Shown here piece after piece: positions 45,966 through 53,200 of a DNA stretch of 64,000 bases (positions are counted from its first letter, which is position 1; every line of letters starts with the position of its first letter). This DNA is from Bacteroidota bacterium (GTDB lineage: Bacteria; Bacteroidota; Bacteroidia; Flavobacteriales; Flavobacteriaceae), in NCBI GenBank assembly GCA_024279425.1, contig JAJRRO010000018.1, positions 62,001 to 126,000 on the forward strand. The letters run 5' to 3'. Under the pieces are notes generated by a model. The model saw nothing but the letters and a program-made list of their open reading frames with translations, searched no databases and was not told the origin of the DNA. The position numbers were made by a program, and so were the translations under genes.

Positions 45966-47048
45966 TTAACCATTAATTATTTTTTCCTGATGGTTAATCG
46001 ACTCTTGGTGAATCGCCTTGAACAATCGAAGAACAAATTCCTCACTCAAGCCTTTTGATTCTCCTTCAAGAATCATGGCTCCAAGAATTTGATTCCATCT
46101 ATTGCTTTGAAGCACAGCCACATTCTTCTGTTTTTTCAATGTACCTATACCGTCAGAAATCTTCATGCGCTTACCAAGGGCATCGATCAATTGGCTATCG
46201 ATAATATCAATTTGTGCCCTAAGATTACTTAATTGATTTTTATATTCAGCTTCCTCATTTGATTCTTTTCGAATTTGCAGATCTTTCATAATCTGAATTA
46301 AGACTCTCGGTGTTACTTGCTGTGCGGCATCACTCCAAGCGTTATCAGGGTCATAATGTGTCTCAATAATCAGTCCATCAAAGTTGAGGTCCAAGGCCGT
46401 TTGAGAAACATCGAAAATCATATCTCTATTTCCTGTAATATGCGATGGGTCATTTATTATCGGCAAATCAGGGAACTTGGTCTGTAATTCAATAGGTAAT
46501 TGCCATTCGGGAATATTCCTATATTTTGATTTCTCATAGGTAGAAAAACCTCTATGTATTACCCCAAGTTTTTTGATATTGGCAGTACTTAGTCTTTCAA
46601 CAGCACCTAACCACAACGACAAATCTGGGTTTACCGGGTTCTTGACCAGCACTATTTGATCAGTGCCTTGCAACGCATCGGCTATTTCCTGTACAATAAA
46701 TGGACTAACCGTAGAACGAGCTCCGATCCATAGTAAATCTATATCATGTTCCAAAGCCAATTCAACATGGGCCCTATTTGCTACTTCGGTTGCAGTTTTC
46801 AAACCTGTTTCTTCCTTTACTTTTTGTAGCCATTTAAGGCCTAAAGCGCCAACACCCTCAAAGTTACCAGGACGTGTTCTTGGTTTCCAGATACCAGCTC
46901 GGAAATAGTTTACATCAGTATCTTTTAATTCGTGCGCTATCTTCAACACCTGATCTTCAGTTTCTGCACTACATGGTCCTGCGATTACCAACGGATGATC
47001 TAATCCTAAATCGTCCAACCATGTTCTCATTTGTTTTGAATTCTCCAT
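45966..47048 (-). CDS. Bifunctional DAHP synthase / chorismate mutase
   Basis: A 360-residue fusion. The N-terminal DAHP synthase (about 1-265, small AroAbeta/KDO8P-like type) shows PLVIAGPCSAETEDQVL, FRAGIWKPRTRPGNFEGVG and NDPSHITGNRDMIFD. The C-terminal chorismate mutase of the AroQ type (about 270-355) shows NLRAQIDIIDSQLIDALGKR. It makes the first committed intermediate of the shikimate pathway and converts chorismate to prephenate, the substrate for the tyrA and pheA products coded just upstream. It is the last gene of the operon under the Phe/Tyr-rich leader. The fused mutase may also serve as an allosteric sensor. Confidence 0.95.
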   Translation of the reverse strand: MENSKQMRTWLDDLGLDHPLVIAGPCSAETEDQVLKIAHELKDTDVNYFRAGIWKPRTRPGNFEGVGALGLKWLQKVKEETGLKTATEVANRAHVELALEHDIDLLWIGARSTVSPFIVQEIADALQGTDQIVLVKNPVNPDLSLWLGAVERLSTANIKKLGVIHRGFSTYEKSKYRNIPEWQLPIELQTKFPDLPIINDPSHITGNRDMIFDVSQTALDLNFDGLIIETHYDPDNAWSDAAQQVTPRVLIQIMKDLQIRKESNEEAEYKNQLSNLRAQIDIIDSQLIDALGKRMKISDGIGTLKKQKNVAVLQSNRWNQILGAMILEGESKGLSEEFVLRLFKAIHQESINHQEKIING

Positions 47049-47061
47049 TTTTAGTGTACTA

Positions 47062-47919
47062 TTATTTGTTAAGTGGTATCCCTTTTAATATTCCCTTTAT
47101 TTTATTGGTATTGTTCATTTCATTATAAATGCCCTCATAATCTTCATTAAGTAGCAACTTTTTAAAGTCTTGTAAATTCTCAATATACTCTTCAAGGGTT
47201 TCAATCACGTTCTCCTTGTTCTGTTCGAAAATAGGAGTCCACATAGCGGGTGAACTTTTTGCCAAACGCACTGTGCTTTCGAACCCACTACCCGCCATGT
47301 CAAAGATATCGCGTTCATTTTTCTCTTTCTCAATAACCGTTTTCCCTAACATAAACGAACTTATGTGTGATAAATGGGATACATAGGCAATGTGTTTGTC
47401 ATGTGCCTCTGGGTTCATATACCTAATACGCATTCCCATTTTTTGAAAAAGTTCGAGTGCTATTTCTTGAAGTTTGAACGCCGTCTTTTCTACTTCACAG
47501 ATAATATTGGTCTTTCCTTCATACAATCTTTCGATAGCCGCTGAAGGGCCTGAAAATTCCGTACCTGCTATTGGGTGGCAGGCCAAGAAGTTTCTCCTTT
47601 TGGAATGATCAGCCAAGCTTTTGCAAAGGGCGAACTTGGTAGAACCGGCGTCAATCACGAGGCAATCATCATTTACGGCATCTAATATTATGGGTAGCTC
47701 TGTCAGCATAACATCAACAGGAATACTTACAATCACAATATTGGCCAAATGCAATTCGTCATAACCAGATTTGATATCTATAAGGCCTAATGCCAATGCC
47801 TCATCCAAATGCTGTGGGTCATTGTCCACACCATATATTTTTGCATTGGGATCAAGCCTTTTTATGTCTTTGGCCATTGAACCCCCAATTAATCCGATAC
47901 CGATTACAAATACGTTCAT
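47062..47919 (-). CDS. tyrA: Prephenate dehydrogenase TyrA
   Basis: A 285-residue NAD(P)-dependent enzyme of tyrosine synthesis. The dinucleotide-binding motif is VFVIGIGLIGGSMAKDIK at residues 3-20. SKR/HPIAGTEFSGP near 113 contains the catalytic His region (FLACHPIAGTEF). There is no mutase or ACT domain, so feedback control is not obvious in the protein. It starts 1 base after the aminotransferase stop and is followed after 13 bases by the DAHP synthase gene. Confidence 0.94.
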   Translation of the reverse strand: MNVFVIGIGLIGGSMAKDIKRLDPNAKIYGVDNDPQHLDEALALGLIDIKSGYDELHLANIVIVSIPVDVMLTELPIILDAVNDDCLVIDAGSTKFALCKSLADHSKRRNFLACHPIAGTEFSGPSAAIERLYEGKTNIICEVEKTAFKLQEIALELFQKMGMRIRYMNPEAHDKHIAYVSHLSHISSFMLGKTVIEKEKNERDIFDMAGSGFESTVRLAKSSPAMWTPIFEQNKENVIETLEEYIENLQDFKKLLLNEDYEGIYNEMNNTNKIKGILKGIPLNK

Positions 47920-47920
47920 T

Positions 47921-49066
47921 TTAAAATCTATCTAATGCTTCTTTTATTTTTTCTTCTTTCACACACAATGAAAACCGGATGTAACCTTCTCCGTTACTTC
48001 CGAAGATAGTTCCTGGTGCAATAAAAACATCCTTATCGGCAAGCACATTATCTATGAATTCTTCCGAACCTTGTACACCTGTAGGTAGTTTGGCCCAAAT
48101 GAACATCCCCACTGCATTACGATCGTATGTGCAATTTAGTTTATCAGCCAAAGCAAATATCAATTCCCTTCGTGCTGTGTAAACCTCATCCAAGGAGTTG
48201 AACCAGTCCTGTCCGCTGGCCAAAGCCGCTATGGCCCCTTTTTGAATGCCATAGAACATACCGGAATCCATATTGCTTTTCACCTTTAAAATTGCATTGA
48301 TATGTGCTGCATTTCCCAAAACCATTCCTACACGCCAACCGGCCATATTAAAGGTTTTACTCAAAGAGTTAAGCTCTAATGCCGTTTTTTTGGCCTCCGG
48401 AACACCTAAAATACTTATGGCGTCATTGTTCAGAACAAAACTATAAGGATTGTCATTCACCAATAATATTTGGTTTGCTTTTGCAAACTGTACCAATTGC
48501 TGAAGTTGTATTTTACTAGCAGTCGCACCCGTTGGCATATGCGGATAACTCACCCACATTAGCTTAACTTTGGACAGGTCTTGCTTTTGCAACTTCTCTA
48601 AATCTGGGAACCAGCCGTTTTCTGCATATAGATCATATTGTCTGGGAACTGCTCCCACAAGCTTGGTAACCGATGTATATGTGGGATACCCCGGATTTGG
48701 AATCAATGCTTCATCTCCCGGATTTAAAAAGGCCATGCTTATATGCATTATCCCTTCTTTGGAACCCATTAATGGTAATATTTCTGTATTGGGATCTGCA
48801 ATTACACCAAATTTCGATGCATAAAACTCAGCAATTGACTCCCGAAGCTCTGGTAATCCCTGATAACTCTGATATTGATGCGCGCCAACATCCATAATGG
48901 ATTGTTGGATGGATTTGATAACATCTTTAGAAGGAATTAGGTCAGGACTACCAATCCCCATATTAATGATGGGCCTACCCTTAGCAATAAGCCCACGTAC
49001 CTCTCTCAATTTTTTAGAGAAATAATATTCTTCTACGGTTTTTAATCTATCTGCGGTACGAATCAT
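47921..49066 (-). CDS. PLP-dependent class I/II aminotransferase
   Basis: A 381-residue fold-type I aminotransferase. The Schiff-base Lys is in LNSLSKTFNMAGWRVG near residue 230; NPGYPTYTSV near 115 and NDNPYSF near 195 hold the cofactor, and IRFSLC near the C-terminus supplies the carboxylate-binding Arg. Set between pheA and tyrA, it most likely aminates phenylpyruvate and 4-hydroxyphenylpyruvate (or prephenate). That substrate is inferred from position; an aspartate or LL-DAP aminotransferase role cannot be ruled out. It overlaps the pheA stop by four bases (ATGA). Confidence 0.9.
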   Translation of the reverse strand: MIRTADRLKTVEEYYFSKKLREVRGLIAKGRPIINMGIGSPDLIPSKDVIKSIQQSIMDVGAHQYQSYQGLPELRESIAEFYASKFGVIADPNTEILPLMGSKEGIMHISMAFLNPGDEALIPNPGYPTYTSVTKLVGAVPRQYDLYAENGWFPDLEKLQKQDLSKVKLMWVSYPHMPTGATASKIQLQQLVQFAKANQILLVNDNPYSFVLNNDAISILGVPEAKKTALELNSLSKTFNMAGWRVGMVLGNAAHINAILKVKSNMDSGMFYGIQKGAIAALASGQDWFNSLDEVYTARRELIFALADKLNCTYDRNAVGMFIWAKLPTGVQGSEEFIDNVLADKDVFIAPGTIFGSNGEGYIRFSLCVKEEKIKEALDRF

Positions 49067-49890
49067 ATTCTGGCATTTTTATATTCGCCTAAAACCCTGA
49101 AATCCTCCGACATTATTTTCAAAAGAGATTTTGCCTTGGCAAAATTATCATATTTGTCAAAGGTAACATCAACAAAAAAGGCATATTTCCAAGGAGATTC
49201 AATAATCGGCAAGGACTGTATTTTGGTCAGGTTAAGATTGCAATCGCTCATGACGTTCAAAACCGTGGCCAAACTTCCCCTTTTATGGTCAGTAACAAAT
49301 CGCAAAGATGCCTTGTTGATCTCCTCTTTGGGCAATTCCTTATTTTGGGTCTTTATAATGATAAATCGGGTTGAATTGTTCTTGATGGTCTGAATCTCAG
49401 GGGCAATAATTTCCAAATCATACAAATCTGCCGCAACAGAGGGTGCTATGGCAGCAATACCCTTTAATTGCTTGTCATGAATTTGTTTGGCAGTTTTAGC
49501 AGTATCGACATCCTCTACCATTTTAATATGCGGTTTGGTCTTCAAAAATTCACGGCATTGCAACAAAGCCATGGGGTGGGAACGCACTTCGGTAATTTCA
49601 TCGACCGTTTGTTCCTTTAATGCCATCAAATTATGATGGATGTTCAAATAGTGTTCGCCGATAATGTGTAAATTATTGTCATAGACCAAAGCATAATTTG
49701 GGATTATTGAGCCCGCTATCGAATTCTCAATGGCCATAACCGCTTTATCAGCCGTGGAATCAAGCAAATCATCGACCAGACCGTGAAAGGACATACATTC
49801 GACCAAATCTATATCATCATCAAAATACTCCCGTACTACTTGATGATGATTAGAACCCTTTATTCCCTGTATGGCTATTTTTAAACCCAT
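49063..49890 (-). CDS. pheA: Prephenate dehydratase PheA (monofunctional, with ACT domain)
   Basis: A 275-residue enzyme converting prephenate to phenylpyruvate. The PDT domain (about 1-185) has AVMAIENSIAGSIIPNYAL and the active-site NNSTRFIII. The ACT domain (about 195-270) reads ASLRFVTDHKRGSLATVLN and IQSLPIIESPWKYAFF; in this family ESP binds Phe for feedback inhibition. Unlike E. coli PheA there is no mutase domain; that activity is fused to the DAHP synthase at the far end of the operon. It is the first structural gene after a Phe/Tyr leader and attenuator. Confidence 0.95.
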   Translation of the reverse strand: MGLKIAIQGIKGSNHHQVVREYFDDDIDLVECMSFHGLVDDLLDSTADKAVMAIENSIAGSIIPNYALVYDNNLHIIGEHYLNIHHNLMALKEQTVDEITEVRSHPMALLQCREFLKTKPHIKMVEDVDTAKTAKQIHDKQLKGIAAIAPSVAADLYDLEIIAPEIQTIKNNSTRFIIIKTQNKELPKEEINKASLRFVTDHKRGSLATVLNVMSDCNLNLTKIQSLPIIESPWKYAFFVDVTFDKYDNFAKAKSLLKIMSEDFRVLGEYKNARI

Positions 49891-49929
49891 TACTTTATTT
49901 TTCGTAAGCTAATACCTAATCTTTTTAAC

Positions 49930-49956
49930 AAAAAAAGTCCCGTTTTTCACGGGACT
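49930..49956 (-). terminator. Attenuator terminator before pheA
   Basis: A perfect 8-bp stem, AGTCCCGT with ACGGGACT, loop GAAAA, followed on the minus strand by six T. It lies 40 bases upstream of the pheA start and in the same direction, so it would stop transcription before the operon. Confidence 0.92.
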
Positions 49957-49982
49957 CAATGTTATATTTTGTTTGCATTACA

Positions 49983-50054
49983 CTACAACAGTCCCGTTTC
50001 TTTCCTAAAAAAGAAGAAAAAATAAAAACTGTTATAGAAATACTGCTTTGTCAT
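49983..50054 (-). CDS. pheL: Phe/Tyr-rich leader peptide
   Basis: A 23-residue ORF beginning ATG at 50054 after an A-rich AATAAA context and ending TAG at 49983-49985. It has seven Phe and three Tyr: MTKQYFYNSFYFFFFF covers the first sixteen residues, with five consecutive Phe codons at positions 12-16. Its codon content matches the products of the operon it precedes, pheA and tyrA. Too short for standard ORF callers. Confidence 0.88.
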   Translation of the reverse strand: MTKQYFYNSFYFFFFFRKETGLL

Positions 50055-50099
50055 TTTATTGCAAAATCTTCCGCTAAGGTAATTATTAAATTTAAAAAT

Positions 50100-50135
50100 C
50101 AAATTTTATACCTGTCTTTTTTTGTTTTTCTCAAA
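50100..50135 (-). promoter_or_regulatory. Possible promoter of the pheA leader
   Basis: On the minus strand TTTG (50132-50135) is followed after 21 bases by TATAAAATTTG (50100-50110), close to the TTTG / TAnnTTTG pattern but with one extra base in the -7 box. Transcription starting near 50093 would give a leader of about 40 bases before the leader ORF. Confidence 0.35.
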
Positions 50136-50142
50136 TAATGCC

Positions 50143-50160
50143 GAATTCTTTAAAGAATTC
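50143..50160. repeat. Perfect 18-bp palindrome upstream of the pheA promoter
   Basis: GAATTCTTTAAAGAATTC is a perfect palindrome without a spacer, 8 bases upstream of the possible -33 box. CTTTAAA recurs just beside it (50160-50167). It could be an operator for a dimeric regulator, but AT-rich palindromes also arise by chance. Confidence 0.45.
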
Positions 50161-50275
50161 CTTTAAAAAAAGACTTTTTATTGGGAATAGCAGAGTCAAT
50201 GCCAGATTTGACCTTGTTCTAAAAAGAATATATGGAATTTAAATTTAGCATAGCGTACTGCTAAAACGTATGATT

Positions 50276-53200
50276 CTATTCCAAATGTTCAACGCCTCCA
50301 TCAAAAAAATAACTGAACCTATCAACATAACGGTTGAATACCATATTTTCTTCTTCGGAAAGTTTCATATCACTATTTAAAACAAGAATATCTACAATTC
50401 TTTTGTAAGCAGATATATCTCCTATAATATTCTCAAATTTTTCGTACTGTTCATTTCGTGGAATGTTAGCATAGTAAATCAACCTTTCTTGATATATCAG
50501 TTTAAGTTGATTAAACAATTCTCGAGCTTTGTCTATTTCCCCGACTTTATAGTACCCATTAATAAAGGGTTCGACGAACGTAAAATATCCGAAAAATTCC
50601 AAGGGCATATTTTTCATAGCGATTTCAAGAACCTCCTTCGCTCGTTCTAACTTGCCCTCATTAATCAATGCCTCTATTAAACGAGTGAGACTAATACGAA
50701 AAGAAATGCCTTGTCTTCTAGTTTGCGGGTCATGATATATATTCGCATCACCAGAATTACCCCATTGCCATTTCTTAACAATATCATACAATAAATCCGA
50801 ATCAATCCTGCCTTTATCAAAAATGCTTTGATTCTTGGTTCTTATTGGCACGAGTTTGTATGCAAGTCCATCCAGTTGCAGATAATCACTCATCCAGATA
50901 TATTCTTCCTCATCAAAGCTACCTCCTGAAAAATATATGGGTCTTTCCCAATCGTTATCGGCAATAATGTCGAGCATCATTAATCTACTTTTGCTGATTC
51001 CAGTTTTTGGTAAGTCAATATCAATAAAATCTACAATCTTATCTGAATCCTTCAAAGCAACCAAACCTGTTTCCAAAACCTTTTTTTTGTCAACTGGTAT
51101 TCTTATCTTATTTGTAGGATAAAAAACAGCGTCCAAATAGTTTTTGGAATAATCATCAATGTTCTTACCCTGTTTTTGAATAAGGCTTTTGAGTTTCGTT
51201 CGAGGCTCATCACTTCCTACCCACTTTATAAAGTCTTTTATTACCCAGCGATTAGATGTTAACGGGGCATAATAGATATAATCACGAGAACCATAGGTGT
51301 ACAAATCGTGTGTCAATTGTGAAGGAATCGGTTCGCTTTTATATGCCTTTCGCTTCATCTGGTCGATATACCAAGGGAAATGAAGATACGTCGAAATTAT
51401 AATCCTTGTATCAGTGCGGTAGTTTTCAATATCCTGGGCATACCAAAGAGGAAAAGTATCTATATCTCCAATAGTAAAAAGGATGGCATTGGCATTTTCT
51501 TGAGTGGAATCTAAATATGCCTTTGCCATTGAAAGTGCTGTAAACCTATTGGATCGGTCATGATCATCCCAATTTTGGCCGGCCATTACTCCTGGTACAG
51601 TAACTAGACATGTGAGGATTACCAAAGGGCTTAAAATTTGAGGAGCAATCAGCTTTCGGAGCACATCAAATAAGCCGTAAACCCCTATGCCTATCCATAC
51701 TGCGAAAACGTAAAAAGATCCAACCAATGAATAATCTCTTTCCCGTGGCTGAAAAATTGTCGGATTGGTATAAAATTGTATGGCAATTCCGGTAAAGACA
51801 AAGAAAACAAAGAGTACCCAAAATTGTTTTGGGTTTTTTCTGGCCTGATATATCAAACCTATGACGCCTAAGATTAAGGGTAAAAAGAAATAGGTATTAC
51901 GTCCTTTATTATTTTTAATCTCACTTGGTAGCTTTGCCAAGCTTCCAAGTCTCAGTTCATCTATGAAATCAATACCACTAATCCAATTACCATGATTATT
52001 GTATTGACCTTGTACATCATCTTGCTTCCCAACAAAATTCCACATAAGGTACCGCCAGTACATATATCCAAACTGAAAACTGAACATATAATCTAGGTTC
52101 TGAAATACGCTAGGTGACTCGACATCTATATACTCCTTGAATTCGTTCAAAAATTCAACATAGTCCTCAATGTTTATATCCCCTAGGGTATAATCCTCTT
52201 TGAATTGGCTTATTGTTGTTTTCAATTCTTCACTTGATCTATATACTGATTTTATCTTAAATTTCAATACCCCAAAATATCGCATGTAATTCTCAGCATT
52301 CTGATTGCTCCACATTCGCGGCAAGATACCTACATGCTTTTTATTGTGTCCTCGTAAAGCGTCTTTATAATGGTTGACAATAACATACCTGCCTAGTTTT
52401 AAATCCTTTACATATTTAGGTCTCTCATCCTCAGTTTCTTCAGAGGAAGCAAAGGCGTCTGAATAATAAGCTCCGTAAAATGGACTGTCGGTACTTGGAT
52501 ATTGCTCTCTATTGTAATAGGCCAATAATGAAAGGGCCTCTGAGGGGTCATTTTCATTAATCACGACCTTAGAGCTGGCACGTATGGGTAGCATGAGCCA
52601 AGAAGAAAATCCAAGCAGTATAAACAGCATACTGAGAATAACGGTATTGGTCTTCTTCATGTTCCTTTTTCGGGTGTGTCGCAATGCAATATAAAAGATA
52701 GAAATAAATAAAATTACCATGATGATAGTACCCGAATTAAATGGCAGTCCGAAGGTATTCACAAAAAATATTTCGCTCCATCCAAACAATTTAAGCACGT
52801 AGGTCAATGAGAATTTAAAGATGAGCATCAAAATTGTCACCGCTACTACATTCGCGACCAAAAAGTTCTTTATAGTTATAGTTTTATAGCATTTAAAATA
52901 ATAGAGAAGCCCTATCGAAGGTATGATCAAAAAACCCATAAACTGAATACCAAAGGTCAAACCCACTACAAAAGATATCAGAATGACCCATCTATTGCCT
53001 CTAGAAGTATCCAATTCGTCCGTCCATTGTATTCCCAGCCACAATAAAAATGCCATGATAAAACTGGCCATAGCATACACCTCTGTTTCTACGGCATTGA
53101 ACCAAAAACTGTCTGAAAAGATAAAAGCTGTAGAACCAATGCATCCACTTCCTAAAATTACTACTAAGCTGCTACCAGTAATCTTGTCTTTTTGCGAGAT

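Follow-up and report, generated by a model that had tools for sequence, protein, structure and literature searches.

A probable transcription attenuator with an aromatic leader peptide upstream of the pheA operon in Flavobacteriaceae

Among the closest described relatives of the element reported here is the pheL attenuator of Escherichia coli and other Gammaproteobacteria (Rfam RF01859), which combines a Phe-rich leader peptide, an arm 2 near the end of the leader, mutually exclusive 2:3 and 3:4 hairpins, and a terminator in front of pheA. To our knowledge, the E. coli leader contains neither Tyr nor Trp codons. Work by Lopatovskaya et al. in 2010 may extend to Bacteroidetes. In a passage of another 2010 paper, leader peptide systems had, to its authors' knowledge, been demonstrated in Proteobacteria and Actinobacteria only, to which that study added Firmicutes (PMC2965389). 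Nearer to the present locus, passages of a 2021 study of Flavobacterium psychrophilum describe a structured 5′ element ahead of pheA, present also in other Flavobacteriaceae genera and without Rfam hits, along with clues to leader-peptide attenuation upstream of amino-acid operons (PMC9723704), and a passage on Bacteroides mentions short leader-like ORFs (PMC7366714). The locus described here resembles pheL in its Phe-rich leader, the placement of arm 2, the exclusive hairpins and the pheA terminator; unlike pheL, the leaders of this group encode many Tyr codons and, in 83 of the 122 compared, Trp codons, and the operon also includes tyrA and DAHP synthase. With trpL- and hisL-type attenuators it shares control codons, an arm within the final leader codons and an intrinsic terminator. 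RF01859 gives the best sub-threshold Rfam match at the leader, but its 27.2 bits (E 0.015) fall short of the gathering score, which is 55, and the pheA leader is therefore not a member of that family by its model.

The stretch of DNA analyzed (the window, 64,000 nucleotides) carries the element on its minus strand, as are all coordinates given below. Sequence inspection and comparison of upstream regions identify a leader ORF at 49983..50054 (MTKQYFYNSFYFFFFFRKETGLL, followed by a stop codon) with 23 codons, seven of them Phe and three Tyr, including five consecutive Phe codons. Its final codons contain the 8-mer ACGGGACT (49990..49997), designated arm 2, the 5′ arm of the putative antiterminator, and the same 8-mer recurs at 49936..49943 as arm 4, the terminator 3′ arm, followed by a T run. 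Between them lies AGTCCCGT (49949..49956), arm 3, which is common to antiterminator and terminator. The terminator scan places a 9-bp intrinsic terminator hairpin at 49935..49957. A preliminary description of this DNA had reported the leader ORF, the repeated 8-mer with its partner, and a perfect terminator ahead of pheA, and all of these were found in place, save that the terminator lies 44 nt from the pheA ATG (49890) rather than 40. A feature beyond those it listed is a 13-bp hairpin in which arm 1, CTATAACAGTTTT (50025..50037), pairs with 49983-49995 in ribosome-free RNA, in both the MFE and the centroid structure, and which contains most of arm 2. When folded, the RNA that spans 50054 to 49925 reaches −42.5 kcal/mol (z −6.0; none of 200 shuffles was equally good), and the two hairpins in this fold are the terminator and 50037-50025 : 49995-49983.

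The four genes proposed earlier as the target operon were confirmed by Pfam: pheA, encoding prephenate dehydratase (49063..49890; PDT, with an ACT match below the cut-off), a class I/II aminotransferase (47921..49066; Aminotran_1_2), tyrA, encoding prephenate dehydrogenase (47062..47919; PDH_N/PDH_C), and a type I DAHP synthase-chorismate mutase fusion (45966..47048; DAHP_synth_1 and CM_2). Adjacent genes in this series are separated by at most 13 nt or overlap slightly. The closest named PheA, at 92%, comes from a Maribacter-labelled metagenome assembly.

From these features, and from the comparisons that follow, we consider it very probable that the supply of Phe and Tyr, and often also of Trp, controls the pheA operon through ribosome-mediated transcription attenuation; the promoter, leader translation, termination and the Phe/Tyr response are all parts of the scheme that we infer from sequence. 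Transcription would start approximately 15 nt upstream of the leader ATG, and a ribosome translating the leader would pass its Tyr and Phe codons. With charged tRNA-Phe and tRNA-Tyr both ample, it would reach the stop codon and cover arm 2, so that arms 3 and 4 could pair and RNA polymerase would stop upstream of pheA. Scarcity of either charged tRNA would stall the ribosome in the aromatic run and leave arm 2 free to pair with arm 3, thereby blocking the terminator and allowing transcription of pheA, the aminotransferase gene, tyrA and the DAHP synthase gene. In the genome of the window, the hairpin between arms 1 and 2 would also permit the terminator to form if the leader were wholly untranslated.

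For comparison within the family, which the named PheA matches suggest to be Flavobacteriaceae, the PheA protein was located in 130 of 149 genomes, including that of the window, and approximately 400 nt upstream of each was taken (less for two regions at contig ends), with 650 dinucleotide-shuffled regions as a control. An aromatic leader, defined by at least eight F/Y/W per 14 residues, was found in 120 of the 130 upstream regions versus 3 of 650 shuffles, a terminator in 124 versus 4, and a leader followed by a terminator in the correct order in 118 (window counted) versus none; both features also occur in six family members drawn later. A looser criterion of at least seven aromatics per 14 residues yielded the 122 regions used for the arm, codon, ribosome and promoter analyses, and the other eight were left out as having no leader-terminator pair. 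One of these eight lies at a contig end; two (L122 and L077) keep the leader, with no terminator detected by the rule used; four (L069, L111, L120 and L089) have neither feature by the rules used; and one has a terminator far upstream, with a leader possibly beyond the 400-nt cut. Leader sequences vary by clade (examples end in NYFWNGFYFYFFFKRGTGLL and YTYYNWFYFFFSKRNETLYV), while their aromatic codons persist: F, Y and W together make up 42% of residues in frame 0 versus 13% and 17% in the two remaining frames, both Phe and Tyr are present in 122 of 122 leaders, and Phe is encoded by TTT 440 times and by TTC 209 times. A covariance model of the leader had its top match at pheA in all 25 genomes searched, 17 of which had supplied sequences for the model; to see whether the switch also precedes genes other than pheA, eight of 53 weaker matches were inspected by eye, and these are terminator-like hairpins, none having an aromatic leader.

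Outside the family, a PDT domain was found in 33 of 119 genomes of the same class, and 30 of these 33 matches formed the comparison set. Eighteen of the 30 pheA upstream regions contain at least seven aromatics per 14 residues (a count made without a shuffle control), and 12 of those 18 have a terminator by the rule. Below the mark are 12 regions: the only two from the same order, four from one family (f40), two from one genus (g161) and four isolated cases scoring 4 to 6. Elsewhere in the phylum, in classes where 77 genomes had a match, none of 30 regions reached the mark and the top score was 4. Because of this difference between 18 of 30 and 0 of 30, the putative attenuator looks like an old trait inside the class.

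Signals for expression of the leader were compared across the same 122 regions. In the window, a putative −7 element, TACCTTAG (50074..50081), departs from the Bacteroidota consensus TAnnTTTG by one mismatch and is preceded, at a spacing of 18 nt, by a putative −33 element, TTTG (50100..50103). The pattern TAnnTT[T/A]G, whose T/A alternative was chosen after the window had been seen, occurs within 70 nt upstream of the leader ATG in 114 of 122 regions versus 68 of 610 shuffled ones, and its distance to the ATG is 16-19 nt in 64 of the 114. TTTG is found 18-22 nt upstream of the −7 element in 74 of the 122, at exactly 18 nt in 59. At the leader starts, position −3 is A in 78% and position −6 is A in 62%. 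In Flavobacterium johnsoniae, according to passages of PMC6847099, the −7 element lies 4-5 nt upstream of the transcription start and A at −3 is a positive start signal. Given the promoter-like element, the A at −3 and −6 and these published signals, the leader looks to be expressed from a promoter of its own, and the start context with its A at −3 suggests that it is translated.

The best duplex scores of arm 2 with its own arm 3 in each leader sum to 2058, versus a maximum of 1735 over 2000 permuted pairings; since the permutation takes no account of relatedness, a tree-based sign test was added. When the arms were anchored independently of pairing, standard pairs made up 82% of cells for 2:3 and 99% for 3:4, compared with maxima of 78% and 93% in row shuffles and of 41% and 53% in slid registers. 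By position, 2:3 pairing in the 122 leaders is 40, 81, 99, 98, 99, 98, 93 and 49%, so the helix core comprises five or six pairs, its ends being loose. The arm 3 core reads TCTCG in 68 leaders, TCCCG in 31 and TCCTG in 14; the other 9 have one or another of six rarer forms, and arm 2 mostly matches. One position is A-T in 68, G-C in 49, G-T in 3 and mismatched in 2, and the adjacent one is G-C in 106, A-T in 11, G-T in 4 and mismatched in 1. On a PheA tree built by a quick method (90 of 130 proteins taken in full, 88 rows with leaders), the two sides of the first position change 8 and 8 times and jointly 11 times, and those of the adjacent position 6 and 7 times and jointly 9 times, indicating that several changes at these two positions coincide. 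At the other 2:3 positions, either one side is far more changeable or little coupling is evident from the joint count; at the outer ones, where pairing is loose (40% and 49%) and coupling was not seen, arm 2 and arm 3 change 31 versus 14 and 28 versus 9 times. The sign test on independent pairs was not significant, its best position having five pairs (same direction 2.6, opposite 0.0, unchanged 2.4). Independent pairs never run in opposite directions at the two coupled positions, in numbers too small for significance, while opposite-direction pairs average 0.4 and 0.5 at positions 1 and 6 among the pairs listed. By this comparison, core positions of arms 2 and 3 change in a linked fashion. The preliminary description had proposed looking in relatives for conserved Phe codons and compensatory arm changes: the codons are conserved and the core arms coupled, the sign test taken alone falling short of significance.

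The placement of the codons relative to the arms was evaluated with a footprint model. RNA was folded to just beyond arm 3 with the ribosome blocking −17 to +11 nt of the first A-site base. These edges are E. coli-like values. Arm 2 was searched only from 33 nt before the leader end, and amino-acid identity played no part. In this model, the mean probability of 2:3 pairing is 0.95 with the A site at aromatic codons versus 0.02 at the stop codon; the stalled value is the higher in 122 of 122 leaders, and the two values are above 0.5 and below 0.1, respectively, in 118 of 122, while three leaders keep a probability above 0.5 with the ribosome at the stop codon. In the window, the probability stays at 0.88-0.96 between codon 4 and the final Phe codon and is 0.00 at the following codon and beyond, and the aromatic run ends 9 nt upstream of arm 2. 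We defined the limit as the last codon with a 2:3 probability of at least 0.5, which could be scored in 118 leaders, four of the 122 being left out. Aromatic codons make up 1064 of 1745 exposed codons (61%) versus 54 of 811 covered codons (7%) in these 118 leaders; by position, their frequency from −4 to −1 is 99, 99, 100 and 96%, with 34% for the limit codon itself and 1% for the codon at +1, so that the aromatic run stops within one codon of the point where the ribosome starts covering the antiterminator arm. Aromatic codons are frequent again at +7, near the end of many leaders (41 of 87, or 47%; 34 Tyr and 7 Phe). Without a ribosome, the mean 2:3 probability is 0.64 and only 31 of 122 leaders have a 1:2 pairing probability above 0.5, from which many relatives would be predicted to antiterminate with an untranslated leader. 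By this model, the design would be a full four-arm one in the window and a three-arm one in many relatives. The pheL/trpL-type logic proposed in the preliminary description thus draws support from conservation, coupled arms and footprint geometry, read from the sequences.

These results also bear on other explanations. The best surviving one, which we nevertheless regard as highly improbable, is a real upstream ORF acting in another mode, through translational coupling or reinitiation, or through TnaC-like nascent-peptide stalling with free phenylalanine. Conservation of a peptide would suit any translated upstream ORF, but here the peptides are variable except for the aromatic codons before the limit and the arm-2-encoding codons after it, the leader ends anywhere from 54 to 178 nt from the start of the PheA match (122 leaders), and an intrinsic terminator separates leader from pheA. 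There is a slighter chance still that the hairpin is the terminator of the upstream TMEM260-like gene, whose stop is at 50276, with the F/Y-rich ORF arising by chance from U-rich sequence. The region is AT-rich, and a simple scan of the 2 kb from 49000 to 51000 found one terminator-like hairpin versus 1.4 expected from shuffles, a count no higher than chance, so the terminator alone is no proof; against this, the hairpin lies approximately 320 nt beyond the TMEM260-like stop and downstream of the promoter-like element, no shuffled region reproduces the leader-terminator combination of the 118 family regions, and the aromatics are frame-specific and stop at the footprint limit. We likewise give next to no weight to a riboswitch, T-box or RNA-binding protein acting on the terminator with the leader ORF incidental. 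In its favour, the linker between leader and terminator is weakly similar among some relatives; against it, the linker is variable while codons and arms are conserved, no Rfam family attains its gathering threshold at the leader, and no T-box appears among the gathering-level matches in the window or the 15 matches with E ≤ 10 in 49800-50200.

With ribosome-mediated attenuation as the preferred reading, the Trp codons may be considered together with the distribution of DAHP synthase. Each of 25 sampled genomes contains two PF00793 proteins: one lies approximately 3 kb or less from pheA, has an open frame of 361-397 aa and reaches the TIGR01362 cut-off in none of the 25, and the other, of 273-309 aa, is above that cut-off in all 25 and is KDO8P synthase. 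Type II DAHP synthase (PF01474) was found in none of the 25. The sole DAHP synthase found in each of these genomes is a member of the pheA operon, which would account for the leader carrying Tyr and Trp codons. A further possibility is that one leader senses Phe, Tyr and Trp together and gates the only enzyme by which the cell enters the shikimate pathway, a reading we offer tentatively, with the larger share of our confidence against it. It draws on the 83 of 122 leaders with Trp, on the exposed position of all 82 Trp codons in the 118 scored leaders (Fisher p 2e-14, ignoring relatedness) and on the single DAHP synthase in the operon; it is weakened by five leaders among the 25 genomes, those of the window and of L002, L005, L009 and L014, that lack Trp even though DAHP synthase is in the operon, and by the 17 changes in Trp presence on the tree of 88.

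The F. psychrophilum element shares both gene and family with the present one and on those grounds is presumably the same, while the sequence anatomy (peptide, arms and codons) does not appear in the passages of that study (PMC9723704). The earlier remark that no description for this operon in Flavobacteriaceae was known therefore holds for the anatomy, within those passages, and fails for the structured pheA 5′ element itself. Relative to the open-licence literature, the kind of switch is classic and the element is partly known, and what is added here is the codon-level anatomy, the coupled arms, the class-wide spread and the Trp codons. The textbook E. coli mechanism is thus argued for Bacteroidia at codon resolution, on sequence grounds only. 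Bacteroidia initiate translation without Shine-Dalgarno sequences, and the mechanism, if true, would demand close coupling of transcription and translation in such a group. Should the three-amino-acid reading also be true, it would, together with Trp-, His- and Ile/Val-rich leaders, make leader-peptide attenuation a main form of amino-acid control. If the mechanism is true, this unannotated set of leader peptides (Phe/Tyr, Trp, His and perhaps Ile/Val) would be open to simple tests in a tractable flavobacterium.

Trp and His leaders found in the same 25 genomes also favour the attenuation reading: a leader containing WWW precedes trpE in all 25, with a terminator pattern in 23. In the genome of the window (G000), the trpE leader on contig 58 (L143) reads MKNEALNTWWWSNLRKTS, followed by a stop codon and a terminator, and the best partner of its end, GTCGTGA (stop included), is the terminator loop and inner 3′ arm. 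In 21 of the 23 terminator-bearing leaders, an end of TCGTGA or close variants, often including the stop codon, pairs best with CACGA and its neighbours; CACGA lies in the terminator loop and inner 3′ arm, whereas the pheA partner lies in the terminator 5′ arm. A His-rich leader and terminator were found upstream of hisG at 24 of 24 loci, the regular-expression count of 23 of 24 being approximate, with L168 and L178 among the leaders missed or misread. The hisG leader of G000 (L163, contig 135), MKNQNTHHHFYTCSQAR and a stop codon, is likewise followed by a terminator, and its end encodes an arm, CTCAAGCG, with the partner CGTTTGAG. A possible Ile/Val leader, MKTTSVIVNRILIVSQRG with its stop codon, precedes a terminator-like hairpin upstream of ilvD on contig 140 of G000 (L223); Ile/Val-rich ilvD leaders occur in several of 22 genomes, some with stronger runs than L223, in a comparison made without a chance control. 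Elsewhere in the window, a SAM riboswitch (RF00162, 62229-62347, minus strand, 67.5 bits) lies upstream of ORFs of 336 and 919 aa, which, on a reading of their sequences, look like a split methionine synthase.
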